Positions 7,101 to 24,977 of a DNA stretch of 64,000 nt are shown piece after piece. The DNA comes from a virus: IMG/VR virus record IMGVR_UViG_3300021365_000008, positions 1-64,000 of that record. One strand, written 5' to 3'. The notes under the pieces are model-generated. The model had not been told where the DNA came from. It saw only the letters and a program-made list of their open reading frames with translations, and did not search any database. The first letter of the stretch is position 1. The number at the start of each line of letters is the position of its first letter. The position numbers were made by a program, and so were the translations under genes.

Positions 7101-10100
7101 ATATGGGTTTCCCAGAAATGGAGACAGATGACTATCAAGCGATCAATGACCCAGCAGAAGAAAACGCAGATAATACTACTGCAGTAAAGCCTGCTGTACA
7201 GGAAGAAGCCCCAAACAGCACAGAGCAACCTCCTGTAGCGCCACCACCTGGACCACCGGCTACACCACCTACACGTGTAGTAGGAAATACTGCTCGGGGT
7301 TCTGCACCATTGAATTTGGTTAACCCTCGTAATGGCACACCAAACATGGTTGCTAAGGGTAAGGAAGGTATAGCAGCGGCGATATTCGAGAATAACATAA
7401 AGGAAGGCACTGAGCTACGAGTACGTTTACTTAATGGATCGACGGCAAACGGTTCATCGTATCAAATCGAAACGATGGATGGCGATGTAATTGCTCAGTA
7501 CTCTGGGCGCAAAAAAGGTGAGGTATTGCCACAGGGTATGTACGAGGCTTTGTTGTTGAATAACGGAGCAGTCACTATTACTGTTAGTGAAATACAGTAT
7601 AAGAATACTCGCGGTGGAGAGCGTGTGCGTTATACTACTCGTGAAGGTCAGCAAAAAGAAGAACTGACACGTGAGCAACGCATGCTGAAAAACGTTTTGC
7701 CGGATATGCAAAACGATATTGTTGGTTACGCTATAATGGGGGACGAGGCTCTTCTGAAAATTGGAGGACTTGAAGTACCACGAGGCAACTATCGATTGTC
7801 ACCGGACGCTCGATTCTCAGGTAATACTTATGTATTTACTAAAGATGCGCGTGATGGCGGAGTTGCGTATCACAATGTGCAGATGGAGACGTTTGGCGCT
7901 AAGCGGGCTAAACAAATCATGTACTTGATTGATGCTTGGCATGATTATGTATATAGCGGAGGTGTAGTTTCTCCTGGTAGCGAGGCAATGTGGAAGGAGT
8001 TTATAGATAAAGCAGAAATAAATCTAGAGGATGGTTGGGAAGTAAACACAAAAAAAATGGCTTCTCGCTTGCAAGCCATGATACCAAGTAATGGTAAAGA
8101 CAAGCAAAAGAAAGTGTTAGATCAGGCAGCAGCGAACGGGGTAGAAATGCAACCTTTGATTAGCATATTGCCAAATGCTGCTAAAGGTACCATAGAGATT
8201 TGGGTACAAGACCAGAAAATGGCACCGATTCAAAGTCACAAAGATTCAAATCCAAATAGTCAAGATTATGTGCAGGTGCAAAATATACTTGCTAATACAC
8301 GCATAAATGTTGATAAGGGTGGTGATGTAACTGTCTTACCAAATGGGGATGGTACGTTTGATGTATATGAGCCGGATGCGTTAATTCAAGAGTTTGGGGC
8401 ATTCGGTAATCGTATGCCTACGGTGATAAATGGCAAAGTGTATAATGCTAATCCAACGGACTTAGTGTACACATTCGAAGCACCGGTAGAAGTGCCAAGA
8501 GGGGAGCCTACTGTAGAGAATGAGCGCAGCAATGAACCGGTCAAGGGAGCAGACCCCATTGACTATGATGTGAGTCAGATTGATTTAGGCGATATATCGT
8601 TTTTACCAAATGAAGTAGACGAGACTGCTAAAGACCCAATGGATCGGGCAGGCAGCTACTATGAAATACCTGGTCTCACAGCGCGTGAAGTACGCGATGG
8701 TGTAAACTTTAGTGCTGGCATTATGAGTCGCGCTATGATGCAGCATATGCGTACTAAAGACCGTAAGAAAAATGTAACTGTACGGTATTTACGTGAGCGA
8801 TTAAAGCGCACCCTAGAAGCACAGCGCAACGCATTTCGCATGCAACCGCAAAGTGCTACGCGTGATGCTATAATTGCTGCACATGATTCTTGGTTAGACG
8901 AAACAGTATTCAATCGACTGGTTGATATGTCGTTAATCGAGATGATGCGGCAGACAAAAGATATTGTTGAGTTGCGTCGTGGCAACTTGCAAAACATATT
9001 TGATAGGTTGACTGACCCGCAATATGATGCAGCCCAAGCAGACGATGCTGATGCTGCAGAACGTGTGGAAAATCCATTAGCGGCATTTGACGATAACGCA
9101 GCATTTGGTGTAGACCCCAAGAGCACGTTACGTCTTGAAGCAAAACTCGTATTGCTGTCGTTAAAGCACAATCCAAAGTCAGGCTTGATTACACCAGAGA
9201 CGTTTGGTCTGGCGGGTCCACGGTTTATGAATCATGCAGACTTGATGGAGAAGCTCAATGCTGCTACAGTAGGAGTAACTCCAAGTTGGAATAAGGTAGA
9301 AGAAACGTTGCAACGTAAAGTGACAACGTATCCTGAGTTCCAAACTGTATTAGATGCTTTGAGTGATGAAGCTGCGTTAGCGGATTTACCGCAAGAGTTG
9401 CGAGATAATGAAAAGGTGCGTAATAATACACGCAACCTGCAAGACATGATTCGCAACCAGTTTACGACTTATGCTAGTAAGGTGCGCACAACTCGTGAGT
9501 CTTTGCGCATTCGCCGTCAGGTAGAGAACGAAGATCGTATTCTGCGAGAAGCCGATATTGAGATATACAACTCGAACCAGCGTAATATGCGGGAGCATAC
9601 TCGTAAGGATATGCGTTCTGTATTGGTTAGTAATGGGTTCTTTACCCTTTCCGGAGAAATAGTACCGGCAAAGTTCCAAGGGTTAGTGGACCAGATGGAC
9701 AAGATTGCGGAAGCTCCAAGCGCTAACCGTGTGCCAGCTTTAGCTATGTTGTTAAACATGGAGCTGGGTATAGATATTCCATTGGCTGCAATTAGCAGCA
9801 CGAACCAAACTGTAGATCGTAAAGGCAAGCCTGTATTTGCAGATATCGAGGAGGGTTTGGGCAATCCTGTAGCAAATCAAGGGGCGTACGGTAAACTGTA
9901 CCGCAGCTTGAAAGCTGTAGCTAAGCGCGAAATGGGCTTAGAAGACTTTATGTCTGATCGCTCTAAAGTAGGTGGTGCAGATGTAATAGACTTCTTTGTA
10001 TCACTGGCTGACTATCGAGAAAACTTTATTCAGAACAGCAGTAAGGACGGTGATGGCAAAATACTGTGGCAATACAGTGCGCCTAAGCTGTTGCATCAGA

Positions 10101-13100
10101 TGTTCGATGATGTAGTGTATGGTACTCGTGGCGACTTATTGCGGGGACGAGTAGAGCGGATGATTGACAAGTCTACTGTAGAGCAGGAAGACTATCGGCG
10201 TGACTTGCAAATCACGTACCTGAGTGGAATTAAGCAGGAGAACGAGGGGATGGAGCGAGACTTCCATGATATGGAAGACGGTGATTTGGCTTTGGCTAAA
10301 CTAGCGTTGTATGGCAATCGTGGTAAGACAAGTGTACGAGGAACCATGCAGTTGAGTGCATTCCTGATGCCTACGCTTGCTGATAAACATACTATGCCAA
10401 TAGTTAAGCTGCCGGCATTGCGATTTGGTGGCGACTTAAAGTTTGTAGCCAATGCTGCTGTACTTGAAAAGCAGCTTAAGGATATAACTGTAAGCGATGT
10501 GATTAATGACATCAACATTGCATACGGTAAGACGGTTCGTCCGGCAGTTCAAAAAGAAATTGACCGGATGAAGCGTCTGTATCGTGGCGACTACGAAGGC
10601 ATGACGGAAGCGCAACGTAATGGCTATGCGTTTGTTATGATGCCGGCACTCAATGGTCTTGCAACAGAACTGAAGAACCGCAAGATTACACCTGTAGAAT
10701 TTGAGAAGCGGGCACATAAAGAAGCAGCGAAGGTGTTTGAGCGGTCTGTAAGTCAGGACATGCAAAGCTTGTTAGAGGGAACGTCGAGTGTTGCATACAA
10801 TGCTATGGCGGACGGTACTCTAGGTGCAATTAAACTGTTTAATATCAACCGTAGTAAGTTCCAATTCTTACGCGATCACTTAGGTATAGCGAAAGGGGAG
10901 ACAGCATCCGCAGAGATGGTGAAGTTGGCATTCTTAGGATTTGTAGCTAAGTACGCTATGGATAGTATGGCTGTACGCACTGGCTTGGTGATGGATATGT
11001 TGGGTGACCCTGCAGTATTTATTAAAACAGATAAGGCAGGTAATGTGAAAGTCGCAAAGACTGCTACCAATATGGGTAAGCGTTTTGCGTCATTGATTGC
11101 CCCCGGTAATGCTATACCCTATGTAGAGTGGGCTATTGATGCAAATACTCGTGCGAACAACCATATGGTACGCACCCTTGTGATTCCTGCACGTACTGTA
11201 GATAAAGCATCGCATTACGATTACTTAAAGAAGCTGGGTCAGACGCCTGATCAGCTGGCGATGCAAGAAGGGTACGACAGTGCTGACGCTGCCGAGTACA
11301 CAACTGTACAGGAACATTTATCCATACTCTATGCGCAAGGTAAGATTAGCCGCAGCGAGATGATGGGTCTTATAAATAAGATTGAAGCCGGCAAAGACAT
11401 AGACCCCTCGGAGGTATTGGCTTACTTCCAACCTATGAAGCCAGTTACAACTGGTCGTGTAGGTGACCATACCTTGTACGTAAAGTCAGCATCATTCCCA
11501 TTGCTACCACAGTTTACACGTGGTACGGAGTTGGATAAGCTGCGGGTATTTATGGAGGACGAAAAGATTAACCGTGCAGCTTACGATAGTGCGGTTAAGC
11601 TTGGTAACAAGTGGGCTGAAGTAGACAGCGAAACCGCAACTGCAGATCAGCGTATGATCTCTGTTCACGAAGGAAATAAGGTTATAACACCCGAAGGATT
11701 AGAAGACCGTGTTATTGAGTACGACAGGAAGTTTATGCGTATTCAGCAAGAAGTACCAGTTAGTGGCTATAAAGAGAAAGTACACGGATCGCAGGTAGCA
11801 AAGTTGGTTTTGGTCAATTTGAATAACGCTGACTTTGCGTTGGATGGTGCGCCTATGAAAGGAAGCGCGTTGTATGAGGAGTACATCAATGCGCGTAAGA
11901 TAGAGCTGGAGGCGCGAAAGGAATTATTTGCGCAGAAGTACGGCATGCAAAATGTGCGTGGCCAGTACGTGCATACTGATGCAAGTCGTGCCAAGTTTGC
12001 TGAGCGTATGTTAGAGGAAGCTATTACACGTGGCTATGACGTTAACGAATTAGCATACTTGCATTACAACACAGAGCTTGGTGAATTTACTACGCCAATT
12101 GTTGCTAGTCCAAGCCAAGAGCGTCTTGAGAATCTGATAAAGGCAATTATATTCAAAGAAGTATATGAGCCTATGATACCAGGTTATTCTGGTCCTATTC
12201 GTCCAGAAGTAGGGTTAGGAGTTGTTGACAACGACTTGTTGAATCGCAACGACGTGGTATGGGTTGTCAAGAATGGAAAGCGTTTATTTAATGGTAAACT
12301 GCAAGTCGCCAAAGATGGCAACCCAGACCAGAGTTTATTGCCATGGAAATACAAAGTCAAGCTAAAGCAGTTCTTGACTGATGGCAACCTTGACCTAGAT
12401 AAGCTGGGAGATAAGTTCCCGGAAGAGCTGCTGCGTACGTTTGCATATCGTATTCCTGGTCAGCGTAAAAGTTCTTCGGCGGCATTTGAAATCGTTGGGT
12501 TCTTACCGGAATCTATGGGCGATACACTGATTGTACCAGAAGAGTTGGTTGGTCGTATCGGGCAAGACTATGATATCGATAAGATGTTTGGCTTGCTGTG
12601 GAGTATAGAGGATAAAGGGGGTAAGATTGAAATTATTAGGGACGTAAAAACCTCTCGAACTGCAGAAAAGACTAGTAGTGTAAGAGACCCAAAGCGTGTT
12701 GTAGCAGCAGCGCGTAATCGTATGTTAGACATCTACTATGCGTCTATGACTAGTCGTGATGAGGCTGTTCAGCAGGCTATACATGCACCAGTTACTGATG
12801 GGTATGGGGAACAGCTTGCAGACATTCTAGATCCTGTATCAGAGAATGTAGGAATGCCTATGAGTGATGCGTACAATGCGGGTAAAGCAAAAGCAGCTCG
12901 TAGTGCTAAGCGTACCATTGGTGTTATGGCAGTGCATAACGTGTTTCATTCGCAGTTGCAGCAGATGTTGTCACTTGTCAAGAAGGGAATACCTATTCAA
13001 GGAGGCGGGTACGTTGAGATACTTGATGAAAATGGAAAGCGTATACCACGTAGCGGTCTAGGGTCGGCTGAAATAACTGATAAGTCATTTGTAAATAAGT

Positions 13101-16100
13101 ACTTCCTAAACGGTAAAGAGTATACACCGCAGGCTGAAACAAAAGCAGACCAGTTCAGCCGGTTACTGAACCACGCGGTAGATAATGAAAATAACGGGTT
13201 GTTAGCACGATTGGGCATCAACCAAGATACTTGGGGTATCTGGACGGGGCTGACTCATATGGGTTACAATCAAGAAACGATTGCCCTGTTTGTTAAGCTA
13301 CCTGTAGTGCAAGAGTATGTAGAGCGTAAACAAAACTTTCGTCGTTTAGGAGTGTTTGGCTGGTTTGACGCGGCAAATATGGTTAGTGAGCTAGAAAAGA
13401 AACTTGCCGCAGACCAGTTTAGAGAAATCAAAACGAAAGACGGAAAAACATTAAAAGAGCTAAAGTCTGATATAGGTGTGCTGTCGAAAAAGAACATATT
13501 TGACATCATCAATAACGAGTCAACTTTAGAGAATAATCAAGCTGTATTCGATGTGCGTGTCGCAAGAGCGTTGATGAACATAGAAGCGTTTGACAAAGAA
13601 GCTAGAAAGCTGCAAAGGTTGTTGCGCTTGGACACGAATAGACCTAAAACCTTAATAGAACATGAGGTGAATTTGCTGAAAATGCAAGAGGTACTTCTTC
13701 GTAGGCCAAACGCAAATCGAATTATTGATGCGGATTACGTACTGGGAGATATAATGCAAAAGACTGTTGCAGGACAAGTATCGCAACAAGCGTTTGAAAC
13801 AAGTCATTTCTTTAAGCTAGATAAAACCGATAGGTTAAGCGGTGTATTGATGCAGTTGACAAATGCAATGACGAAGGCACAGCTGCCGGGTCAAACGGCT
13901 GAGCATGTTGCAACAGTGATGAAGGGTGCAAAGAGTCTAGCGTATGCAAATTTCTTGAAGCAGTGGACAGGAAGGTCTGCGTCTGAAATACGAGACGAAG
14001 CGCACGATGTAGGTACTGGTGGTATAGCACAGCGCTTGATTGAAATGCGTAAGACTAAACCAGAAATTGCACAAAATGCATTCGTAAAACAGCTCGTTGC
14101 AGTCAAGTCACCTGGCACATACCCACATATTGAGTTTACCGGTGATAGAGGTTTGGAGTTGAGTGCTGTTGAAATGCACCGTTCGTTCCTGTCGATGTTT
14201 AAGAGCAAAGATCCTGAGGTTCGGGCATTTGCAGAAGAGCTAGCGGTATACGGTGTTGCAACTAGCTTAGGCCGGTTGAAAGCACGAGGCTACATGAAAT
14301 ACATACCTGCGGAATATCTACAGTCTAAAGGATTAGCAGAGCATGTAAATCCAACTACAGTAGGTGAGTCACTAGGTCTGGCATCTGATATAGAGTATAA
14401 TTCCGAAACGGCTTTTATGCTGGATATTTTACAGCCGATTGAAGGCTTGCGACAAGTAGTACGTCACAATCCGGAAGTAGCACCTCGCTATGTTGAAAGT
14501 ACAGAGATATATCGCAATAATTTCAAGGTAATTGATGGGCAGCTCTTTATGAATGCAAATGCGCCAAGTATGATTGGTCATGTACGTATAGGTAATAAGC
14601 TGTACACAAGTGTTGATTTGAAGCAACTCGATGACGGTAGTACATATTATGTGTTGAAGCTGATGACACCACTTGGTGATCACTTAAGCGAAGAATACAC
14701 TACTGACCATGTGCCTTTTGTAAAGGCATCACCTCAGGTATATGCATCACAATCTGGAATTGATAGCTTTGGTTTCACAGCTCCAAATGATAACTATGAA
14801 CTAGTCGATGACGGCTCCGGGTATAGTGAAGCGTACTATGACGATAGCGCGGAGATGGGCGATTATAATGTTCCAGAACCAGGAGTAGAGGGTGAAAATG
14901 TAGTGCACGATGTAAATAATGAGGTAGTACGGAATAATGCACAACCTGTAGGGCCGCAAACGATGCTTAATCATTTGGAGCGCAATGTTCCAAAAAGCAA
15001 AAACGCTCCATTTATTATGGAGATGCTGCGGGTAGACCAGGAACTTAATCCTGATAACCCGATAAAAATCAAACTAATTGAGCCTAACTCTGATAGTTAC
15101 TATAACCGTAAAGACAATACGGTATATGTATCACCGGAGAATGCAGAAGATATGCGTGTGTTAACCCATGAGATTACACACGGTTTGACTGCTATGGGCT
15201 TGGCTATTGCTAGTGGCCGTATCAAGGCACCTAAAGGCGTGAATGCTGAGAAGGTAAAAGCTGCAGTAGCGGAGTTAGATACGTTACGACGGGTAGCAGA
15301 ACAGAGCTTGGAGAAAATGGGTTTGAAGGCGTCAGAGCTAGCGCAGTTCCGTCGCGGATACAATGTATTCCGACGTATGCAAGAAAGCCGTATGGACCCT
15401 GATCGAAAGTTTGCACCAATAGCGTATACCGATCTTAGTGCAGCAGAACGTGCTGACTATGATTTTATGTTCCGCAATCGGGATAAGTACTATGGCTTTA
15501 TCGATGTGAATGAATTCATTGCTGAGGCTATGACAAACAAAGAGTTTGCAGAGCGATTAGCAAAGATTGATGCGGTACCAACGGAGACACGTAAAGGGTT
15601 TATTGCTCGGTTCTTAGATAAGATTAGTCAAGTATTGAATGCGCTGGGTATACAGATAAGCAACGCAGAACAGACATTGTTAGCGGATGTATATGCGCAG
15701 AGCATGAACCTGATGGATTTGACTAATAAGAAAGCGTCAGAAGTAGCTGAGCGGATACAAGCGCAATCAGAGTATGACAGCGATATAGAAAGCATGTCGT
15801 TCTTACCGAACGTAGCACAAGCAGAAGGGTATCAGCTGGACTCGCGAGATATGCTGGTAACATACAAGAAGAAGCGTGTACGTCAGTTCCAAGAGTTGAT
15901 GAGTCGCTACAAGAACAATAAGATGTTCCGTAAGAGAGTAGCGCCAAGGTTGTTGCAAGAGGAAGAGGAGTTGCGAATGCTGACTGATGATAGTGTAGTC
16001 ATCGATGAGTCATACTTGTTAGCGATGGGTCAGCGCGAGTTGGACTTGGCGAAACGTGTGATACAATCTGTTGATGCGACAGACCCTGAGATTTCGGTCG

Positions 16101-18973
16101 CATTGAGTGCATTGCAGAATGTGTACAGTGTTATTGACTTCTATGGTCAGTATCGGTCTATATCGAAAGACCCTGACTTGAAGGACGCGGCAACATCTTT
16201 GTTGCGGGAGTCTGCACAGTTGCGCGAAGAGTATTTGGAGAAGGCTCGTGTGGTATTGCGTGAAGCTGCTAAGCGCGAGTTTGCAGGTAAGGGTGTAAAT
16301 GTTGATGCGAATACGTTTGAAGAGCTGGTAGAAAGCGGATTTGTTTCAAGTACCTTCCAAGATGCCTCTCGTCAAGGATTGACGGAGTTGTCTTTCTTAG
16401 ATAAGATTGTACGTGATTCAGCACAGAAGCAACGTGTCGAGTTCAATCGACGGGCGAAGGAATACTTGGATGCGAGTGCTAAGATGAAGAAGGGTGCTTA
16501 CTTCAAGAAGTACAGCTGGAATGGATTTGTAGAGCTAGATGCTCAGGGCAATCCTACATCACGCATTATTACTATGTTGAATGACCAGTTTGATATTGCT
16601 CGTGAGCGCAAGTTTAAAACGTCGAGCAAGCAAGAGTACTTAAAGTGGTTGAAGCAAACGTCACTGAAATTAAATATTGACTCTGTGTTTGTCGACAAAG
16701 ACGGCGTAGTGTCGCGTAAAAAGAATCCGGCGTATGAACGTCTGCTAGAAGAAAAGCTTGGCAAGTATGGCGCATCAGAAGCATTGCGTCAACAAGAGAC
16801 CCGCTATCAAGAATTTGTAGATCGTCGTGAAGCGGCTTACGATAACATCGAGCTGACTGTTCCACGGGCTGAACAAGAAGAAGCTAAGGCAGTATGGATG
16901 CAAGAAAACAAGTGGCGCAAGGATTTGCGATTCCCATTGAAGGAAGTTAATGGTAAGTCCAGCGAGTTCTATGATGCTCGCTTCGATGAGTTGATGGCGG
17001 ATAAAGATGCCAAGGCTTTCTACGAATTCTATCGCCAACAGATTATGGAGTTGGGCAGAATGTTGCCGGCACATAAGATGCGTAAGCAAGCACGTTTGTT
17101 GGAGAACGGCTTGTTTATACCTGCAATCAGTAAAACTTTGATGGAGGAAGTTATGGAAACGCAGGGGTATGGCGAAAAGGTGGGCAAGCTTACTGATTCA
17201 TTTAAAGCATCTCTGACTGTGGATGCAGAAGCTAACTTGAACAACTTAATAGATCCTACAACAGGACGTCCGCGTCAGGAGTTGCCAACGTATTTCTTAG
17301 GGCAGCTAGACCCCAAGACGCAGGAGTACGATATGGATAAGACGTTCTTAGGGTTTGCTATGATGGCGACTACATACGATAGTAAAAACCAAGTAGAGGA
17401 TAAGGTAAAGATGGTGCGCAGTGTATTGAGTGGCGCAACAATTATAAAAGACCCAAACAACAAGGTCAATAGCGCACTAGACCCTAAGCTGCGAGATGCT
17501 AAGGCGCGGGAAGATGTCATGCGTAGTGTAGATACCGTAGTAGATACGTTTTACGGTGTGCAGCAGCGGCGAGACATCACGGGTAATGCGCCGGAGTCTA
17601 TGTGGACGCGGGAGCAAAAAGCAAAGATTGAAGATCTGCGTGAACAGTTGCTGACGGCACAATCGAAGGAAGCTAAAGAGCGTATACGCAAAGAAATTGA
17701 AGAAGCTACCCCAAAGCTCAGTACAGTAAAAGCGGCACGTCAAGCTCAGCAGTTATCGCAAGCTATGGGTATGGCATGGAACCTACCGGCGGGTATCGTA
17801 AATATGGTGTTTGGTGGGCTGTCAGTCTTTAAGCATGCTGCTGGTCGTGCAGACTTTAATGAAAAGCATGCGCGAAAGGCAACCGGTATTATGCTGTCGT
17901 CATCATTAAACATGATGACTTTGAATACTGGCCTGACAAAAAATGAGGTAGCGGAGAAGATTCAGAATATGATGATTAATATGGATGTTCTGAAGGACTT
18001 TACGGAGATGCGATACGATGTGCGGAAGTTTGCTGCTCAAGCGGGGGAGTCGGGTGTAGCTCAGAAAGGCCGTGGCGTAAAGGACAAGCTGCGTATGTAT
18101 GAGATACAACGTAGCTCGGAATATTTTGTATACGGTCAGGGAACTATCGCTACTCTGTTAAGTATTGAAGTAGACGGTAAGAACTTGTGGGAGCATATGG
18201 ATGCAGATGGTGTCATTCAACTGGATGGCTATCGACCAGGAGAAGCTAAGCATCTTGAGTTGATGAATAAGATTGACCAGATAAATAAGCGTATCCATGG
18301 TAACTACGACCCTAATAGTCCAATTGCTATTAAGAAGACAACACTTGGTCCGTTGTTGATGCAGTTCCGTAGTTGGTTACCGGAAGCTATTGCTACGCGC
18401 TTTGAAAAGGAAAGCTATGATCCGTATCTAGATAGGACGGTAAAAGGGTCTTTCCGTACTATGTGGAATAAGAAGCATCTACGTGCAATGTTTCCGTTAC
18501 TGCTGCCAAGCTTTATTCGTACTAAAGGTATGGATACGTTACCGCCGGAAATCAGTGAATTAGATCAAGAAAATATTCGCAAGTTTAGTGCCGGTGTCCG
18601 TCAGTGGTTGCAGGTAATGGTATTCTTAAGTCTGTTACGGGCGATGAAGGATGATGAGGATAAGGAAGAAAACATCCGGTTTTATAATGCCGCGCTGAAC
18701 CTAGCTGGGCGTGTAGAAACAGACCTAGGTTTGTTTGGTGACCCTAGAAATATCTTTGAAATGACGCAAGGAGATATGCTTGCTGTGATCGGATTATTAG
18801 GACGTGTAGCAGATTTCTTTGACGCTATGAAAGATACTGCAATGGGCGAGGGAGAAATTACTACAGGCGTGTATGCTGGTAAGAATAAGATGTTGCATCA
18901 CGGTGGTAAGCTGATACCGCATGTTAACTCTGTACAGCGAATAGTAAACCAGATGGAGCGTGAGATGAATTAA
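4160..18973 (+). CDS. Giant virion polyvalent protein: DxDxD RNA-polymerase-like region plus zincin metallopeptidase domain
   Basis: At 4,937 residues it fills nearly a quarter of the window. The ATG at 4160 (MSDENNN) is preferred over the upstream TTG because it gives an eight-base overlap with the preceding stop. Visible regions, in order: hydrophobic helices at about 210-260; a charged coiled coil at 775-835; an acidic then Pro-rich linker at 930-1045; a long central region with FPLLPQFTRG near 2445 and GFLPESMGD just before the loop QDYDIDKM, whose aspartates are D2803, D2805 and D2807; a zincin motif HEITH at 3670-3674 with a downstream NEFIAEAMTN (E3785/E3789) that may give the third zinc ligand; then a long helical C-terminus with a hydrophobic stretch near 4810. 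The DxDxD loop in this context is typical of the two-barrel polymerases of crAss-like phages, which are packaged and transcribe early genes. The peptidase could mature the polypeptide or act on host proteins. Both functions are inferred from motifs. Confidence 0.65.
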   Translation: MSDENNNLVNLGDLGSASPDDLREALRGQPDTVKGEPKEDVPAEDNSQRYLDLGAFNDNLVMDGDEMKFINPYSPDFNFDLDQFETKRRRVSEGSMLSGILNGVEGLEENFQYTGIDSVVNRSQEAQGVVNKMKNGFTQLITDTSLNVAQGFTSLLYGVPSAIVNGDLTKLYDNAVANSLDKGTEFLDEFYKIKRGGNQSTGQKAANFIFDDIFGAASFVMGAIATELAFTAISTATFGAAAPAQVAVTGGLVARGTRLANKALNGGKWLMSGGMIDDALKGASQLSQMATRQAAGQALRNAGKAIATPQALHTSMRVGRQLITGASMEAGMEARHMLNTAVEDHKHQYEELYGQGSFTEQMGEDFRQEISGYGDQVFGLNMALVGGSNMLMFPKLFGVGLGKGMRNTKLLDTSTLSAKAQKRLAKNLGVEVGNLPKFVDAAQGNTFGRIVGRGGELGRITAANTKNALYEGFVEEGGQGAISRTAEDYISKKYDPRGLQKTANFAESFLEGLAGSYGTGEGFKEIGLGMLLAFTGVPMYVRSKNAEGKASWNLQMMGGFADQRAQLLARDKQVQSIINLSERNGDVNGILKAEIENMNRQNVLSREQEIAAGQGDFKRAKDIESDMIFSHAASKILTGRYEQSLGEARQILDEMSEDEFREQLGPEGKNMTDEEVRQHKTKAYDTYKGRMERARLAYEQAREVYRGTDPDVYTGVANMLYNAEELDAREKRVAEKMAEQIEGFTPGQVLDVMRAQAELGLSDKEVALLAEKSQRLQELNNVDLPRIEQNIITAEAAAEAKAERAREQAQIEEEIAQIKKAKETQNNVDRNKYTFDPVFLEDLRQLHDVKSAQQGSTYRGEDIQRMYDDLVNIAADRMKVIEAYNDFIKPGGVQRFEDRMRGSIERLAQLSPEEKLAQMQAEADEADRKAFEEETNTAEKPAGEQQSTIVEEEDDDFEDPGIDAQDDYGVVSEESLQDGSNMGFPEMETDDYQAINDPAEENADNTTAVKPAVQEEAPNSTEQPPVAPPPGPPATPPTRVVGNTARGSAPLNLVNPRNGTPNMVAKGKEGIAAAIFENNIKEGTELRVRLLNGSTANGSSYQIETMDGDVIAQYSGRKKGEVLPQGMYEALLLNNGAVTITVSEIQYKNTRGGERVRYTTREGQQKEELTREQRMLKNVLPDMQNDIVGYAIMGDEALLKIGGLEVPRGNYRLSPDARFSGNTYVFTKDARDGGVAYHNVQMETFGAKRAKQIMYLIDAWHDYVYSGGVVSPGSEAMWKEFIDKAEINLEDGWEVNTKKMASRLQAMIPSNGKDKQKKVLDQAAANGVEMQPLISILPNAAKGTIEIWVQDQKMAPIQSHKDSNPNSQDYVQVQNILANTRINVDKGGDVTVLPNGDGTFDVYEPDALIQEFGAFGNRMPTVINGKVYNANPTDLVYTFEAPVEVPRGEPTVENERSNEPVKGADPIDYDVSQIDLGDISFLPNEVDETAKDPMDRAGSYYEIPGLTAREVRDGVNFSAGIMSRAMMQHMRTKDRKKNVTVRYLRERLKRTLEAQRNAFRMQPQSATRDAIIAAHDSWLDETVFNRLVDMSLIEMMRQTKDIVELRRGNLQNIFDRLTDPQYDAAQADDADAAERVENPLAAFDDNAAFGVDPKSTLRLEAKLVLLSLKHNPKSGLITPETFGLAGPRFMNHADLMEKLNAATVGVTPSWNKVEETLQRKVTTYPEFQTVLDALSDEAALADLPQELRDNEKVRNNTRNLQDMIRNQFTTYASKVRTTRESLRIRRQVENEDRILREADIEIYNSNQRNMREHTRKDMRSVLVSNGFFTLSGEIVPAKFQGLVDQMDKIAEAPSANRVPALAMLLNMELGIDIPLAAISSTNQTVDRKGKPVFADIEEGLGNPVANQGAYGKLYRSLKAVAKREMGLEDFMSDRSKVGGADVIDFFVSLADYRENFIQNSSKDGDGKILWQYSAPKLLHQMFDDVVYGTRGDLLRGRVERMIDKSTVEQEDYRRDLQITYLSGIKQENEGMERDFHDMEDGDLALAKLALYGNRGKTSVRGTMQLSAFLMPTLADKHTMPIVKLPALRFGGDLKFVANAAVLEKQLKDITVSDVINDINIAYGKTVRPAVQKEIDRMKRLYRGDYEGMTEAQRNGYAFVMMPALNGLATELKNRKITPVEFEKRAHKEAAKVFERSVSQDMQSLLEGTSSVAYNAMADGTLGAIKLFNINRSKFQFLRDHLGIAKGETASAEMVKLAFLGFVAKYAMDSMAVRTGLVMDMLGDPAVFIKTDKAGNVKVAKTATNMGKRFASLIAPGNAIPYVEWAIDANTRANNHMVRTLVIPARTVDKASHYDYLKKLGQTPDQLAMQEGYDSADAAEYTTVQEHLSILYAQGKISRSEMMGLINKIEAGKDIDPSEVLAYFQPMKPVTTGRVGDHTLYVKSASFPLLPQFTRGTELDKLRVFMEDEKINRAAYDSAVKLGNKWAEVDSETATADQRMISVHEGNKVITPEGLEDRVIEYDRKFMRIQQEVPVSGYKEKVHGSQVAKLVLVNLNNADFALDGAPMKGSALYEEYINARKIELEARKELFAQKYGMQNVRGQYVHTDASRAKFAERMLEEAITRGYDVNELAYLHYNTELGEFTTPIVASPSQERLENLIKAIIFKEVYEPMIPGYSGPIRPEVGLGVVDNDLLNRNDVVWVVKNGKRLFNGKLQVAKDGNPDQSLLPWKYKVKLKQFLTDGNLDLDKLGDKFPEELLRTFAYRIPGQRKSSSAAFEIVGFLPESMGDTLIVPEELVGRIGQDYDIDKMFGLLWSIEDKGGKIEIIRDVKTSRTAEKTSSVRDPKRVVAAARNRMLDIYYASMTSRDEAVQQAIHAPVTDGYGEQLADILDPVSENVGMPMSDAYNAGKAKAARSAKRTIGVMAVHNVFHSQLQQMLSLVKKGIPIQGGGYVEILDENGKRIPRSGLGSAEITDKSFVNKYFLNGKEYTPQAETKADQFSRLLNHAVDNENNGLLARLGINQDTWGIWTGLTHMGYNQETIALFVKLPVVQEYVERKQNFRRLGVFGWFDAANMVSELEKKLAADQFREIKTKDGKTLKELKSDIGVLSKKNIFDIINNESTLENNQAVFDVRVARALMNIEAFDKEARKLQRLLRLDTNRPKTLIEHEVNLLKMQEVLLRRPNANRIIDADYVLGDIMQKTVAGQVSQQAFETSHFFKLDKTDRLSGVLMQLTNAMTKAQLPGQTAEHVATVMKGAKSLAYANFLKQWTGRSASEIRDEAHDVGTGGIAQRLIEMRKTKPEIAQNAFVKQLVAVKSPGTYPHIEFTGDRGLELSAVEMHRSFLSMFKSKDPEVRAFAEELAVYGVATSLGRLKARGYMKYIPAEYLQSKGLAEHVNPTTVGESLGLASDIEYNSETAFMLDILQPIEGLRQVVRHNPEVAPRYVESTEIYRNNFKVIDGQLFMNANAPSMIGHVRIGNKLYTSVDLKQLDDGSTYYVLKLMTPLGDHLSEEYTTDHVPFVKASPQVYASQSGIDSFGFTAPNDNYELVDDGSGYSEAYYDDSAEMGDYNVPEPGVEGENVVHDVNNEVVRNNAQPVGPQTMLNHLERNVPKSKNAPFIMEMLRVDQELNPDNPIKIKLIEPNSDSYYNRKDNTVYVSPENAEDMRVLTHEITHGLTAMGLAIASGRIKAPKGVNAEKVKAAVAELDTLRRVAEQSLEKMGLKASELAQFRRGYNVFRRMQESRMDPDRKFAPIAYTDLSAAERADYDFMFRNRDKYYGFIDVNEFIAEAMTNKEFAERLAKIDAVPTETRKGFIARFLDKISQVLNALGIQISNAEQTLLADVYAQSMNLMDLTNKKASEVAERIQAQSEYDSDIESMSFLPNVAQAEGYQLDSRDMLVTYKKKRVRQFQELMSRYKNNKMFRKRVAPRLLQEEEELRMLTDDSVVIDESYLLAMGQRELDLAKRVIQSVDATDPEISVALSALQNVYSVIDFYGQYRSISKDPDLKDAATSLLRESAQLREEYLEKARVVLREAAKREFAGKGVNVDANTFEELVESGFVSSTFQDASRQGLTELSFLDKIVRDSAQKQRVEFNRRAKEYLDASAKMKKGAYFKKYSWNGFVELDAQGNPTSRIITMLNDQFDIARERKFKTSSKQEYLKWLKQTSLKLNIDSVFVDKDGVVSRKKNPAYERLLEEKLGKYGASEALRQQETRYQEFVDRREAAYDNIELTVPRAEQEEAKAVWMQENKWRKDLRFPLKEVNGKSSEFYDARFDELMADKDAKAFYEFYRQQIMELGRMLPAHKMRKQARLLENGLFIPAISKTLMEEVMETQGYGEKVGKLTDSFKASLTVDAEANLNNLIDPTTGRPRQELPTYFLGQLDPKTQEYDMDKTFLGFAMMATTYDSKNQVEDKVKMVRSVLSGATIIKDPNNKVNSALDPKLRDAKAREDVMRSVDTVVDTFYGVQQRRDITGNAPESMWTREQKAKIEDLREQLLTAQSKEAKERIRKEIEEATPKLSTVKAARQAQQLSQAMGMAWNLPAGIVNMVFGGLSVFKHAAGRADFNEKHARKATGIMLSSSLNMMTLNTGLTKNEVAEKIQNMMINMDVLKDFTEMRYDVRKFAAQAGESGVAQKGRGVKDKLRMYEIQRSSEYFVYGQGTIATLLSIEVDGKNLWEHMDADGVIQLDGYRPGEAKHLELMNKIDQINKRIHGNYDPNSPIAIKKTTLGPLLMQFRSWLPEAIATRFEKESYDPYLDRTVKGSFRTMWNKKHLRAMFPLLLPSFIRTKGMDTLPPEISELDQENIRKFSAGVRQWLQVMVFLSLLRAMKDDEDKEENIRFYNAALNLAGRVETDLGLFGDPRNIFEMTQGDMLAVIGLLGRVADFFDAMKDTAMGEGEITTGVYAGKNKMLHHGGKLIPHVNSVQRIVNQMEREMN

Positions 18974-20157
18974 CGCTCAGCCATCAGCTTTAATACTTCT
19001 TGAATACGTTGCAGCAATGTGTTACCCGTCTCGTTACGGGTAGTGCGTAGTTGCTCTTCTCTGTAGAATGGGTCTAGCTCCGCCCCAAAACATATTGTGC
19101 CCCACTGACCTAGAAGTATTGAAAAGTCTATTACGTTAAAGTATCCATTATTGTTTAAATCTCCTGGAAGCCAGTATGGGTTTTCCCAGTTACTTAACAT
19201 CAATAGCATATCGTTCATTCCCACCACGTAGTCGCCGTCTATATCTCCTACGCATACATTGGCGTCATTATTGACTAGACCTGGACGGGTAATGGGGATC
19301 ATAGTATGCATACGTTCTATTTGCCCTTCAGTAAAGTTTGTTCTGCATGAATCCACGTAGTAGTCCATGTGGTTGTTAGGTGTATAGTTATACGCTCCAG
19401 GAGGGCATATAGGATTCTCACAACTCCAACTTACCTTGATGGGTGGTGTATCGCATACATAGTCACCCGTTTCTTCGCAAGGGCCAAGGTCTTCTCCGCA
19501 GTAGTCTACGTTTCTAAATACGTGATGCAAGCTAAGGTAGTGACCCACTTCATGGATAAGTGTTTTGTTTTCATCTCTATCGCCCCACAGGTGGTCTCCA
19601 ATACGTCCAAAGACATTAGCCCTAACCCACACTCCGTCGAATGGGGTAGGAGCTTGCGCTGTCCAAGCAAATCCCAAAATCCCAGCACAGAATTGCGGGA
19701 ATATATGCACGTTCATGTACAGGCTTCTATCCCATACAATATCCTCTAGGTAGTCTTCGGTTGTGCTCCACCCATAGTAGCTATAAGGTACGCAGGTGTT
19801 GTACAGCTCAAGGGTTGGCTCCATGCCTTCCACCTCATCTAGGTTATGGTATTCTATGGCAAGAAGGTCAAAAGTAAACATAGCTTCCTCGAACTCTTCG
19901 TTGAGGTGTTCGTGTGCATCCCATATGATCGCATCGCCCAACATGCTATACTCGTAGGGGAAGCTGTCTGTGTAGTGTACGTGTACTACGTAGTTTACGT
20001 TCTTCCAAGACGGAGGGTCTGGGTTATACCCCATCATCTTTATGGCTTGGGGTTCATTCCCAAATACTACGCAGCTGTCCTGTGCAGAAAGATTAAGGGT
20101 GAAGCAAAGAAGAGCTAGTATACTAACCCTACTTTTTATTTTTCTTATTAGCGACAT
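18970..20157 (-). CDS. Secreted M43 (pappalysin-type) metalloprotease with two dockerin-like repeats
   Basis: A 395-residue protein with a signal peptide (basic start, hydrophobic core at residues 11-24, cleavage near SAQ/DS). The zinc motif HEVGHYLSLHH (202-212) fits HExxHxxGxxH of family M43, except that Ser209 replaces the usual Gly. The Met-turn region NHMDYYVDSC (262-271) and paired cysteines around 220-271 also fit M43. Two calcium-loop repeats follow, GDIDGDYVVGMNDM (304-317) and GDLNNNGYFNVIDF (332-345), each ending in a Leu-rich helix, like type I dockerin or EF-hand units. A short charged C-terminus follows. It should act outside the cytoplasm on protein. It overlaps the upstream membrane-protein gene by 29 bases, so it belongs to that cassette. 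Its stop also overlaps the stop of the giant plus-strand gene. Confidence 0.85.
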   Translation of the reverse strand: MSLIRKIKSRVSILALLCFTLNLSAQDSCVVFGNEPQAIKMMGYNPDPPSWKNVNYVVHVHYTDSFPYEYSMLGDAIIWDAHEHLNEEFEEAMFTFDLLAIEYHNLDEVEGMEPTLELYNTCVPYSYYGWSTTEDYLEDIVWDRSLYMNVHIFPQFCAGILGFAWTAQAPTPFDGVWVRANVFGRIGDHLWGDRDENKTLIHEVGHYLSLHHVFRNVDYCGEDLGPCEETGDYVCDTPPIKVSWSCENPICPPGAYNYTPNNHMDYYVDSCRTNFTEGQIERMHTMIPITRPGLVNNDANVCVGDIDGDYVVGMNDMLLMLSNWENPYWLPGDLNNNGYFNVIDFSILLGQWGTICFGAELDPFYREEQLRTTRNETGNTLLQRIQEVLKLMAER

Positions 20158-21107: not shown

Positions 21108-21815
21108 TTACCACTTAATAGGCTGACTTCCGTTGTCTATTAGAAATTTATTAGCCTGACTAAAGTGATTGCTTCCAAAGAATCCTGCTTTACCTCCGCT
21201 GTAACCTTCTGCTGCGGGGTGTGGAGCAGTTAGTACTTTGTGATAGGGTCTGCGAAAATAAGAAGCATATTCTTGTGCAGCTTTACCCCATAGCATAATA
21301 ACTAATGGCTTGTTACTATCCCGTTCAGCTAAGGCTTGTAAACTTGCAGCGATAAATTGTTCCCAGCCCCAACCATGGTGAGACTTAGCTGCGCCTTTAT
21401 CTACTGTTAGAATTGTATTGAGCAGCAATACACCTTGTTGTGCCCAAGGAAGTAGATTGCCTCCTTCAATACTGGTATCGCCATAGCTGCCTTTTACTTC
21501 TTTAAGAATGTTGCGTAGGCTAGGATTGATTGACGGGCTGTTGCCTACGTCAAATGCAAGACCTGTGGCTACCCCATTGTGATAAGGGTCTTGTCCAAGT
21601 ATAAGCACACGCGCATCGTCAATACCGGTTTCTTTGAATGCTCGAAAGATGTCTGTGCGATGTGGATATACAGTACCGTATGTGGCTGCTACCTGAATAC
21701 GGTACTTAAGGTCATTCATATAGCCGGAAGCAAACTCCTCAGCTAAGTGAGGAGTCCATTGCTTACCAACTATTTGTTCTATATCAGTCTTGATCGGTTG
21801 AGTCGATACGTTCAT
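21108..21815 (-). CDS. ung: Uracil-DNA glycosylase, family 1
   Basis: 235 residues, close to the usual family length. Motif 1 is GQDPYHNG (74-81), with the catalytic Asp in the water-activating loop. LLLNTILTV and SHHGWGWEQF follow, and the C-terminal leucine-loop region appears as APHPAAEGYSGGKAGFFG, then a Ser-Asn-His stretch. The enzyme removes uracil from DNA and so starts base-excision repair. In a phage it may purge deaminated bases or help in nucleotide control. The gene starts inside the end of the nuclease gene (32-base overlap) and is the last protein gene of the long minus-strand replication block. UDG is common in crAss-like phages, which supports the placement. Confidence 0.95.
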   Translation of the reverse strand: MNVSTQPIKTDIEQIVGKQWTPHLAEEFASGYMNDLKYRIQVAATYGTVYPHRTDIFRAFKETGIDDARVLILGQDPYHNGVATGLAFDVGNSPSINPSLRNILKEVKGSYGDTSIEGGNLLPWAQQGVLLLNTILTVDKGAAKSHHGWGWEQFIAASLQALAERDSNKPLVIMLWGKAAQEYASYFRRPYHKVLTAPHPAAEGYSGGKAGFFGSNHFSQANKFLIDNGSQPIKW

Positions 21816-22812
21816 ACTTTTCTAATACAAGGTTATTAATCATACCCAGCTGTGTTTCCATGCTGTTGCCCCAATTGTTTCGAGCAAGATGGAACGCACA
21901 TCGATGGAGCAACTCACTATATTGGGTTTCACCATCGTATATGTAGGTATCATCGAGCTTGAAAACATCTGCAGGATACTCTTTATTTGTTTGCACTGCG
22001 ACAATGTATATCTCGGAAATTTTGTACTCGGGATATACTTGATTCAAACACATAGAGTAAAAAGCAAGCTGCCTGTGATAATTGTACTTGAGCACTGTTT
22101 CTTCAAACTTGCCAAGAGGAGCACGGGTAGTCTTCAAATCAACTAGAGCAATTGATTTGTGCTTGTGGCTAATGAGCACTCGGTCTAACTTAGCTTTGAT
22201 TGGAAGAGTCACCGTTTGGTCTTCTATCTCATATGGCAAATCAAATGTGATTTCCATTTCTTCTTTAGACTCGTCGTAGGCATTGAATCCCAATTCACAA
22301 ATCAAAGACTTGGCAATTGGGTTCATCTTAATCGACTCGACACAGCCAGTCACGATATGATATGTAGCTGGGTCGACAATAAGTTTACCTGCGCTAGTAC
22401 ATAGACACTTCCAATATTCACCGCCGTCTTTGACAATGCGATTAATCTTAGTTTGAAGGCTATACTTTGGATAGAAGTCTGCGGGTATAACAGCTTGCCA
22501 CGTCTCTTCTGAGTACGTGTCAAGTTCTGTTACCGGAATTTCTTCTGCAGGAATCTCCGAATACAAGCGCTTGAATAAAACCTGAATGATATCCTGTGTC
22601 TTGGGACCAGGAGTGGCTTCAGAAATTATATCTAGCTTACCCGGTTCAAGCAGCTCTTCATGTATTAGAGTACCTATTTCAAAAGAGCTAGATGCTTTTT
22701 CTTCAAGGTTACCATCTAAAAACTTGCGGAAGTATCGTGGGCTGCCCCCAGATGCTGGGTCGATATAGTTGAGCGAGCTATTGCTTATCGCTTTTATGTC
22801 AAAGTAATCCAT
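21784..22812 (-). CDS. PD-(D/E)XK nuclease (Cas4/RecB-type exonuclease)
   Basis: 342 residues. An N-terminal helix precedes SSFEIGTLIHE (42-52), the conserved GTxxHE helix of RecB/Cas4-type nucleases. The active-site hairpin follows as KAKLDRVLI then ALVDLKTT, giving the D...DxK signature. YNYHRQLAFYSM supplies the Q-x3-Y helix that usually ends the fold. Such phage enzymes act as DNA exonucleases in recombination or end processing. No cysteine cluster for an iron-sulfur centre is apparent, unlike many Cas4 proteins. It is coupled to the upstream gene by a one-base overlap and overlaps the uracil glycosylase gene downstream. Confidence 0.85.
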   Translation of the reverse strand: MDYFDIKAISNSSLNYIDPASGGSPRYFRKFLDGNLEEKASSSFEIGTLIHEELLEPGKLDIISEATPGPKTQDIIQVLFKRLYSEIPAEEIPVTELDTYSEETWQAVIPADFYPKYSLQTKINRIVKDGGEYWKCLCTSAGKLIVDPATYHIVTGCVESIKMNPIAKSLICELGFNAYDESKEEMEITFDLPYEIEDQTVTLPIKAKLDRVLISHKHKSIALVDLKTTRAPLGKFEETVLKYNYHRQLAFYSMCLNQVYPEYKISEIYIVAVQTNKEYPADVFKLDDTYIYDGETQYSELLHRCAFHLARNNWGNSMETQLGMINNLVLEKYERIDSTDQD

Positions 22813-23873
22813 TAGAATAAACTCAGTTGGTTTTCGAATAGGTCAAGGTATTCATCTTTTTCCTCCTCAGTCCAATATTCTCCAGATACCATGTTGTACC
22901 AAAGCTTCTCTTGCTGATCCCAGATAAAGTCACCATTGTTGAATATAGACTTATCATGCGCCTCTACCTCGTCAAAGATAGTAGGAGTATATAAAGGACT
23001 ACGTGCAGGTTTACTATAATGCGCATAATCAGCGTAGAAGGTCATACCATTAGTTACTTCTACATCATTAAAGTATAGCTGAGCATCTACTACCACACCG
23101 TTATCTAGAGATATTTTGGTGTCCGTGCGTTGGTACCACTCCGGATGATTCTCTAGTCGGTCAAGCCGTTCTAGTGTAGCGTCATCAACTGCGTATACTT
23201 CTACTTGAATGTTGTGCCCATCCTCTCGATGGCCTGGTAATACAAATGGTACGCCCTCGCAAATCATAGCATACTGATCAATAGTTTGGCCGGAACCTAC
23301 TAGCTTACTAGATTCTAGCAAACGGTGATTGCCCCAGCCTTGACGCAATGTTCCATATACAGCAACGAGATGCTTGTTTTGTAGAACATTAGGCTTGCTA
23401 TAGAGTACACCATCTTGTTCATGCCACCGGCCTATACGATTTACATATAACTTGCCTTTCTTAGACATACGAGTATATACAAATCTGCTATCTGTTAGCG
23501 ACAGTATATCTTTCCATGATTGCCACGGAGTTTTGCGCAGGGTATCTGCAACGAAGCGGGTATCGCTTTTATCCTTGCTCCAAGTATGTGGTACTTGAAC
23601 AGTACCATTATGGAACAGCCAGTTATGTTCATTGATTTGTACTGGGTGTACATTGTCTAATGAAGTTTTGCCGACTGTAGTAAGGCGGGCATGGAAGACA
23701 TAAGGTCTTTCAGAAGTGAGCCAGTCTTGTGCTTCTGCTATGTTCATGGTTTTGAGTACTTCACCGCTATCAAGCATCTGAATACCAAAACCATCGGGGT
23801 TGTAAGAGAGAGCTTTTGCAGCAATCTTTTGATCAAGCTTCCCCTGTTCTTTCTTGACTATAATCACACACAT
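22812..23873 (-). CDS. Fusion of class II glutamine amidotransferase and gamma-glutamylcyclotransferase domains
   Basis: 353 residues with two enzyme domains. Residues 1-165 are an Ntn-type class II glutamine amidotransferase: Cys2 of MCVII is the predicted nucleophile, and NPDGFGI, FHARLTTVGKTSLDNVHPV and LFHNGTV match the family motifs. This domain would release ammonia from glutamine. Residues 166-285 are a GGCT/AIG2-like cyclotransferase, with AVYGTLRQGWGNHRLL and LDRLENHPEWYQR; this fold cleaves gamma-glutamyl amides with formation of 5-oxoproline. The last 60 residues are acidic and not assigned. The downstream end touches the PD-(D/E)XK gene, and the start overlaps the amidoligase gene by 41 bases. 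Together they look like a two-gene amide-chemistry unit. The substrate is unknown. Confidence 0.85.
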   Translation of the reverse strand: MCVIIVKKEQGKLDQKIAAKALSYNPDGFGIQMLDSGEVLKTMNIAEAQDWLTSERPYVFHARLTTVGKTSLDNVHPVQINEHNWLFHNGTVQVPHTWSKDKSDTRFVADTLRKTPWQSWKDILSLTDSRFVYTRMSKKGKLYVNRIGRWHEQDGVLYSKPNVLQNKHLVAVYGTLRQGWGNHRLLESSKLVGSGQTIDQYAMICEGVPFVLPGHREDGHNIQVEVYAVDDATLERLDRLENHPEWYQRTDTKISLDNGVVVDAQLYFNDVEVTNGMTFYADYAHYSKPARSPLYTPTIFDEVEAHDKSIFNNGDFIWDQQEKLWYNMVSGEYWTEEEKDEYLDLFENQLSLF

Positions 23874-24783
23874 CGAGAGTGAGTTGTTTAGAATTAATAT
23901 TTCTGTTAGGTTGAGGATGGACAGTTAGCCGGTGGCGGACCGTTGTAGGTATTAGCTTACCAACACGACTGAACTCTTGCCAAGCAATGGCTTCTTTCAT
24001 GTATGCTTTACGATAAGCCGCAGCTAACAGAACTTTTTCTCCGTACTTTTTCTTGTACAAGCTGTGGATATGACTGCCCAGAGCACTATTGATATTCAAT
24101 AAGTCACTGTAGATTGTATCCCACTTGAGTTCTTCGTAATACGGATTAGAAAACAGGATTCGTAACAATTCAATACGCCACTTAAGCTGTTTCAAGTTTT
24201 TAATACCGGAAAAGATTCGAATCTCCATGCGGTCATCCATAAGATTAATGGCATTGTAACGCTCATTATAATCTCCCTGCTTAAAGAACTTAGAGTAGCC
24301 ACGCATCTTTGCACGTTTAGGATACAAGGCATAGAGCAATGGAATGATTTGCTCTGCTTTCGCTTTATAGTAATCAGACGTTGCTCCTTTCTTTGATATT
24401 GTAACATGCCCTCCACATCTGTAGGTAGTATCAGAGTGAATAAGGAAGTTCAATATGGGATTAGAGAGATGCTCATAGTAGTTCATAGACATAAGGTCAT
24501 AGATAGGGCTGATAAGCTCAAATCCATATGAACCTAGTGAGCCGTCACGCTCAGCTCGAAACTTATGTGGTAGTAAATCCTCGCGGTGCCCTTGATATAC
24601 CTGCGCTATAGTTTGACCCTTACTGTCTTCTTTTTCTGCTTCGAAACCAAAGCGATACAAGGTGTCTATAGTACAATCCCAAAGAGCAGACATAGAGTGG
24701 TACCCGTAAAGGTCACCGTAGTCATATCGTCTGTCTTCGTATAGAGCATCGTATAGTTCGTTGCGTTGCTCTAAGGACGACAT
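23833..24783 (-). CDS. Amidoligase-family (glutamine-synthetase-fold) ligase
   Basis: 316 residues. Visible family motifs are FGFEAE (46-51), ERDGSLGSYGFELISP (79-94), CGGHVTISKKG (123-133) and INLMDDRMEIRIFSG (178-192). They follow the order of the predicted phosphate and metal-binding strands of amidoligase_2 proteins. Known from comparative genomics, these glutamine-synthetase-like enzymes are predicted to form amide bonds with ATP and often sit next to glutamine amidotransferases and AIG2-type cyclotransferases, as here. Product and substrate are unknown; candidates are a modified peptide, a cell-wall peptide or a small gamma-glutamyl compound. It overlaps the fusion gene (41 bases) and the small upstream gene (13 bases). 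Confidence 0.8.
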   Translation of the reverse strand: MSSLEQRNELYDALYEDRRYDYGDLYGYHSMSALWDCTIDTLYRFGFEAEKEDSKGQTIAQVYQGHREDLLPHKFRAERDGSLGSYGFELISPIYDLMSMNYYEHLSNPILNFLIHSDTTYRCGGHVTISKKGATSDYYKAKAEQIIPLLYALYPKRAKMRGYSKFFKQGDYNERYNAINLMDDRMEIRIFSGIKNLKQLKWRIELLRILFSNPYYEELKWDTIYSDLLNINSALGSHIHSLYKKKYGEKVLLAAAYRKAYMKEAIAWQEFSRVGKLIPTTVRHRLTVHPQPNRNINSKQLTLDVCDYSQERTGEA

Positions 24784-24977
24784 GGCGTGTGACGATTGTT
24801 GAAGTCCTCAATTTCACGTAGCATCACTTCAAATAATTCTTCAGTGCTGATTTCATGTTGACGCCATTTATCTGCGGCGTCTGTGAGTGTAGTCATATTC
24901 TTAATAGCGTACTCTCGGTCGCTGTCCATCATACCATTCGAGATTTCCTCGTGGTAGTACTCTTTTAATTTGCCCAT
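24771..24977 (-). CDS. Small acidic hypothetical protein (68 aa)
   Basis: A 68-residue helical protein, rich in Glu, Asp and Met, with a His-x-Pro end (NNRHTPCRP). No family was recognised. It starts two bases after the stop of the NinB-like gene and overlaps the amidoligase start by 13 bases, so it is translationally coupled to both. It could be an accessory subunit of the amidoligase unit or an unrelated regulator; the sequence does not decide. Confidence 0.5.
   Translation of the reverse strand: MGKLKEYYHEEISNGMMDSDREYAIKNMTTLTDAADKWRQHEISTEELFEVMLREIEDFNNRHTPCRP

Follow-up and report, generated by a model that had tools for sequence, protein, structure and literature searches.

The stretch of DNA analysed here (the window, 64,000 nucleotides) is part of a virus record of 79,874 bases. 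On its minus strand it carries two overlapping genes. The upstream one (23833..24783) encodes a protein of 316 aa which, on its conserved motifs and predicted structure, is supported as a divergent amidoligase with the COOH-NH2 ligase fold of glutamine synthetase (GS)-like enzymes. The downstream one (22812..23873) encodes a protein of 353 aa starting with Met-Cys, in which a class-II glutamine amidotransferase domain (GAT-II, an Ntn glutaminase; residues 1-160, 23394..23873, minus strand) is fused to a gamma-glutamylamine cyclotransferase domain (GGACT/AIG2; residues 168-275, 23049..23372, minus strand). The reading frames of the amidoligase and of the GAT-GGCT fusion overlap, as the first-pass annotation had recorded. 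They share 41 nt (23833..23873, minus strand), and the same overlap is present in the close relatives holding both genes. Translational coupling of the two genes through this overlap is likely.

The description of the surroundings as a phage replication block also held. Around the pair lie genes for primase, RusA, Orf/NinB, a Sak4-like annealing ATPase, a DnaB-like helicase and DNA polymerase, making up a replication/recombination block, and downstream of the pair are a RecE-like/PD-(D/E)XK exonuclease and a uracil-DNA glycosylase. The glycosylase gene (21108-21815, minus strand; Pfam UDG, 5e-15) adjoins the pair across the clade, a conserved arrangement, and its best PHROG, phrog_12143, is of unknown function. 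A 68-aa ORF (24771-24977, minus strand) overlaps the start of the amidoligase; it is 36-50% conserved in relatives and its family matches were unconvincing. The window also contains a single ORF of 4,941 aa (4148-18973, plus strand), an unusual size in a phage record of some 80 kb, and a gene (18970-20157, minus strand) for a protein of 395 aa, in which an HExxH stretch resembling metalloproteases (LIHEVGHYLSLHH) and repeats resembling dockerins (DIDGDYVVGMNDMLLML) are present. The latter protein had no PHROG match, and a homologue was found in one relative (L007).

The GAT-GGCT fusion and the amidoligase

Analysis of the fusion protein revealed a match to PF06094 (GGACT) over residues 170-270, with E=3.5e-21 and 76.4 bits against a cut-off of 22.8, and a match to GATase_6 over residues 51-93, with E=8e-4, which is under the curated cut-off. 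In an alignment of 48 sequences the glutaminase residues C2, H61-x-R63, N89-G90 and D104 were invariant, and so were the cyclotransferase residues YGTL173-176 and E241. The AF2 model (pLDDT 89) matched human GGACT as well as the glutaminase domain of GlmS in Foldseek, where 1xff, 3ooj and 1ct9 represented the GlmS/AsnB-like glutaminase fold. The sequence profile of the fusion matched 3mdn, amidophosphoribosyltransferases and GFAT, and its cyclotransferase domain matched human and mouse GGACT by sequence as well as by structure. The human enzyme shares with the domain in the window its fold, YGTL and the context of the catalytic Glu, but stands alone, whereas the window domain is fused to a glutaminase. 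Thus, the Cys2-type GATase-II and the fused GGCT/AIG2 domain named at first pass were both confirmed; the fusion is real and, judging from its conserved residues and model, looks catalytically intact. In a number of relatives (L033-L044, L048-L072 and similar) the C-terminus of the GAT-GGCT protein is a zinc-ribbon-like CxxC...CxxC tail, which replaces the QLSLF tail of the window protein.

When the amidoligase was searched as a single sequence, it had no match in Pfam and stayed below threshold in NCBIfam and PHROG (PHROG amidoligase, E=0.28); sequence searches gave no match among catalogued phages and nothing useful in the PDB. The cut-off of PF12224 (22 bits) was likewise missed, the window protein having no match and its close homologues at most 13.5 bits. 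Viral contigs yielded homologues with 18 to 66% identity, and 16 residues were invariant in 43 sequences, including E48, E50, E78, D80, S82, CGGH126, R157, Y176, E187, R189 and R203. The diverged homologues share the motif series GxExE / ERDGS / CGGH / RY / ExR. The order of the motifs ExE ... D/S-G ... H ... R-Y ... ExR in this clade is also that seen in PF12224-positive amidoligases from phage C75C1 and its relatives. Comparison of the window clade with the PF12224-positive clade by hhalign gave a probability of 27% (E=7e-4), which is suggestive at most, and structure prediction was therefore used.

The AF2 model of the amidoligase had a pLDDT of 86, falling below 50 for residues 297-316. 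Glutamine synthetases were its best Foldseek matches in the PDB, with YbdK, PafA and Dop lower, and many annotated phage amidoligases were among the matches in BFVD. The TM-scores to glutamine synthetase were low, the top matches reaching 0.33-0.38 when normalised by query length, so a superfamily is claimed here for this protein and no substrate. At that level, the call of an amidoligase is borne out by the motifs of the diverged homologues together with AF2 and Foldseek, despite the lack of a Pfam match from the single sequence, and the product is supported as a divergent amidoligase with a predicted GS-type ligase fold. Of the profile searches proposed at first pass, that for GGACT succeeded, that for PF12224 failed and that for GATase_6 gave a match under its cut-off, while likeness to both amidoligases and GATase-II was found. 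One BFVD relative of the amidoligase is annotated as 'LIM domain containing protein'. The amidoligases at five other loci (L045, L047, L073, L075 and L083) carry long acidic Cys-rich N-terminal repeats of the WCEDxGEYYYDE type, which are perhaps metal-binding.

Linkage of the two genes and relation to known cassettes

Profile searches of viral contigs gave 174 relatives for the fusion (80/174 kept) and 189 for the amidoligase (80/189 kept). The amidoligase and GAT-II occurred together in 91 of the 100 distinct viral groups, the remaining 9 being cut by a contig end. The neighbourhood survey proposed at first pass thus found the pair linked in relatives. Such pairing is far beyond chance, and the overlapping amidoligase and GAT-GGCT genes are inherited as a unit. 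GAT was fused to GGCT in 65 of the 91 groups and unfused in 26, so the pair of ligase and glutaminase is the constant core; at loci with an unfused GAT, a separate GGCT gene was sometimes present some 5 to 6 kb off. At the surveyed fusion loci the amidoligase lay upstream on the same strand. Across lineages the spacing between amidoligase and GAT ranged from overlap to about 5 kb, and the neighbouring genes differed too.

As a control, 80 bacterial loci from the same search (mostly GGCT-retrieved) were checked; a window-type amidoligase was present in 0/80 and a PF12224-type profile matched in 1/80. In the species genome set, fusion matches running from the start through both domains occurred in only three loci, all of them MAGs, two of which were Bacteroidota (Cytophagales and Flavobacteriales). 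At six of the viral loci (L109, L117, L123, L146, L147 and L150) one GAT-II gene lies between two divergent amidoligases, an arrangement that suggests two acceptor specificities served by a shared glutaminase, and another locus (L121) has two amidoligases and two GAT-II genes.

In several phage groups, amidoligase cassettes are on record as a module with a putative role in peptidoglycan modification or superinfection (PMC5498523, PMC3890496, PMC10580990, PMC11945000). They are widespread, and the label of peptidoglycan modifiers has been attached to them since 2009; the literature found contains no enzyme experiment or other biochemistry for any phage member of these enzymes. The cassettes of LUZ24-like phages, CW02, RIO-1/PSA-HP1 and the phiEco32 type resemble the window in having an amidoligase, a GAT-II (GATase_6) and a GGCT/AIG2 in an early block adjoining primase/helicase, although no GATase is annotated in the stretch of CW02 examined. 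These cassettes are also placed, like the window pair, just upstream of primase/helicase and combine the same chemistries. The window form differs from them in that its GAT is fused to GGCT and its amidoligase strongly diverged, and in that neither a COOH-NH2 ligase (PF14395) nor a RimK-type ATP-grasp could be detected.

PF14395 gave 0 matches in the window record and 30 related viral records, while it was positive in PaP4 and CW02. PF08443 gave 0/31 in the same set (the window record and 30 relatives), but this model also missed PaP4's own ATP-grasp copy, and cassette-specific HMMs were therefore added. These HMMs, built for the COOH-NH2 ligase and the ATP-grasp from the cassettes of PaP4, CW02 and ctwe8250, matched 5/5 known cassettes (these three, ZRK32 and PJNS034) and detected neither ligase in 154 window-type viral loci, in the window or in the rest of its record. 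Since the extra ligases are absent, the window form is a distinct reduced variant, and the first-pass description of an undescribed chemical system was too strong. The cassette type is already known; the stable two-gene form is the new part.

Counterparts exist in two GenBank phages of other lineages, C75C1 (OQ984151) and Podoviridae sp. ctfjg026 (MW202828), where the same kind of GAT-GGCT fusion (39.5% identity) lies downstream of an amidoligase gene. The amidoligase of C75C1 is a bona fide PF12224 protein (3.5e-30), unlike that of the window, whereas in ctfjg026 the gene adjoining the fusion encodes a homologue of the window protein that has a long N-terminal extension; the GAT-GGCT proteins of both phages are without the QLSLF tail found in the window. 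OM43 phages carry PF12224 and PF13522 genes annotated as auxiliary metabolic genes (AMGs), which, unlike the window form, show no fusion. Poriferisphaera phage ZRK32 has amidoligase, GATase and GGCT like the window, but unfused, and carries in addition the ATP-grasp and COOH-NH2 ligase homologues that the window form lacks.

Proposed chemistry, target and the candidate clamp-binding tail

We propose that the two proteins constitute a glutamine-dependent amide-forming system, probably active early in infection. Going by the invariant catalytic residues and the fold, Met1 would be removed and Cys2 of the GAT-II domain would hydrolyse glutamine to give ammonia. The partner amidoligase, from its glutamine-synthetase fold and motifs, would then act as an ATP-dependent carboxylate-amine ligase, activating a carboxylate and joining this ammonia or an amine to it, which forms an amide. 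The fused GGACT domain would release 5-oxoproline by cyclising gamma-glutamyl groups off amines, either to trim the substrate or to remove side products. Such a logic would parallel that of MurT-GatD or asparagine synthetase B, in which, as in GlmS, a glutaminase feeds ammonia to an acceptor site; GlmS and AsnB also share the GAT-II fold with the window fusion. MurT-GatD, however, combines a class-I GATase with a Mur ligase, GlmS works without ATP, and we know of no GGACT domain in MurT-GatD, GlmS or asparagine synthetase B. It counts against the proposed mechanism that relatives of Ntn-fold GAT-II are also able to act as plain amide hydrolases. The folds, catalytic residues and linkage together favour the compact amide-forming phage system suggested at first pass, and we consider amide-forming chemistry of the pair to be probable.

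As for the substrate, the leading guess, taken by analogy from the larger phage cassettes, would be a carboxylate on the stem peptide of host peptidoglycan, or on its precursor, whose modification would act against superinfection. This reading is weakened because the cassettes from which it was developed contain additional ligases that the window form lacks, and no gene within the window specifically supports a peptidoglycan target, which we put forward tentatively. The pair may instead serve small-molecule auxiliary metabolism by making or recycling a soluble compound of gamma-glutamyl or amide type; a role of this sort has been put forward for nitrogen metabolism genes in ZRK32. Known GGACT relatives do act on gamma-glutamyl-amines, and the published AMG proposal covers an amidoligase, a GATase, a glutathione-synthase-like gene and a GGCT. 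The ZRK32 work, in the part available, describes whole-phage addition rather than enzymes, however, and no further biosynthetic gene is commonly linked to the pair; we regard a metabolic role of this kind as possible, though rather unlikely.

The tails of the two proteins bear on a third reading. The GAT-GGCT protein ends in QLSLF (22815..22829, minus strand), a candidate beta-sliding-clamp-binding motif, and Q[LI]x[LM]F was present in 14 of 15 diverged tails of the clade, one relative having a longer tail with QLDLF kept. Around the motif, the neighbouring residues and the length of the tail vary, and codons change synonymously. The shuffled-tail probability of the pattern was 0.0019, and neighbouring phage proteins totalling 211,719 aa contained it 0 times, as compared to about 5 in shuffles. 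Strict clamp-motif regexes run on the phage's own sequence matched only GAT-GGCT and the amidoligase. The low-confidence C-tail of the latter contains QLTLDV (23869..23886, minus strand), a weaker clamp-motif-like peptide in which QLxL is kept in 16/16 members of the window clade, the following D-V being constrained by the gene overlap. C-terminal QLxLF is a published consensus for binding to the bacterial beta clamp (PMC4549789).

QLSLF, perhaps together with the QLTL of the amidoligase, could thus tether the pair to the beta sliding clamp, there to amidate, tag or untag a replisome protein, the clamp or new DNA. No phage-encoded clamp domain (PF02768) was found in the window record, so the host clamp would serve. 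The location of the genes within a replication block is consistent with such docking. On the other hand, the motif is five residues long and its binding putative, and the tails are of one ancestry and hence do not represent independent events. In other clades the same enzymes bear a zinc-ribbon-like tail or no tail at all, and the C-terminal residues may instead contact the partner enzyme or pack against the protein itself. We consider docking on the clamp unlikely, and the full proposal, an amide-ligase cassette docked on the host sliding clamp via QLSLF and modifying a replisome component or DNA, doubtful indeed. To our knowledge, amide-ligase chemistry docked on the clamp is not known in any replication-takeover system.

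Decoration of a modified thymidine by the amidoligase would also suit the position of the pair in the replication block, and the addition of amino acids and amines to bases by phages is known. However, a thymidylate-synthase-family gene was absent from the record and 30 relatives, and no base-modification gene was present among the scanned window proteins; the DNA-linked groups offered as a target at first pass thus found no support, and base hypermodification appears very improbable. Neutral co-inheritance of functionally unrelated enzymes lying side by side would fit the synteny common to all close relatives, but it is hardly credible, since the pair persists across lineages despite different spacing and neighbours.

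The two-gene form described here is the smallest consistent version of the cassette and, being the smallest, it is the easiest to reconstitute, which would make the question of its substrate testable. Should the clamp motif prove genuine, the assumption of a cell-wall target would have to be revised for the window clade.
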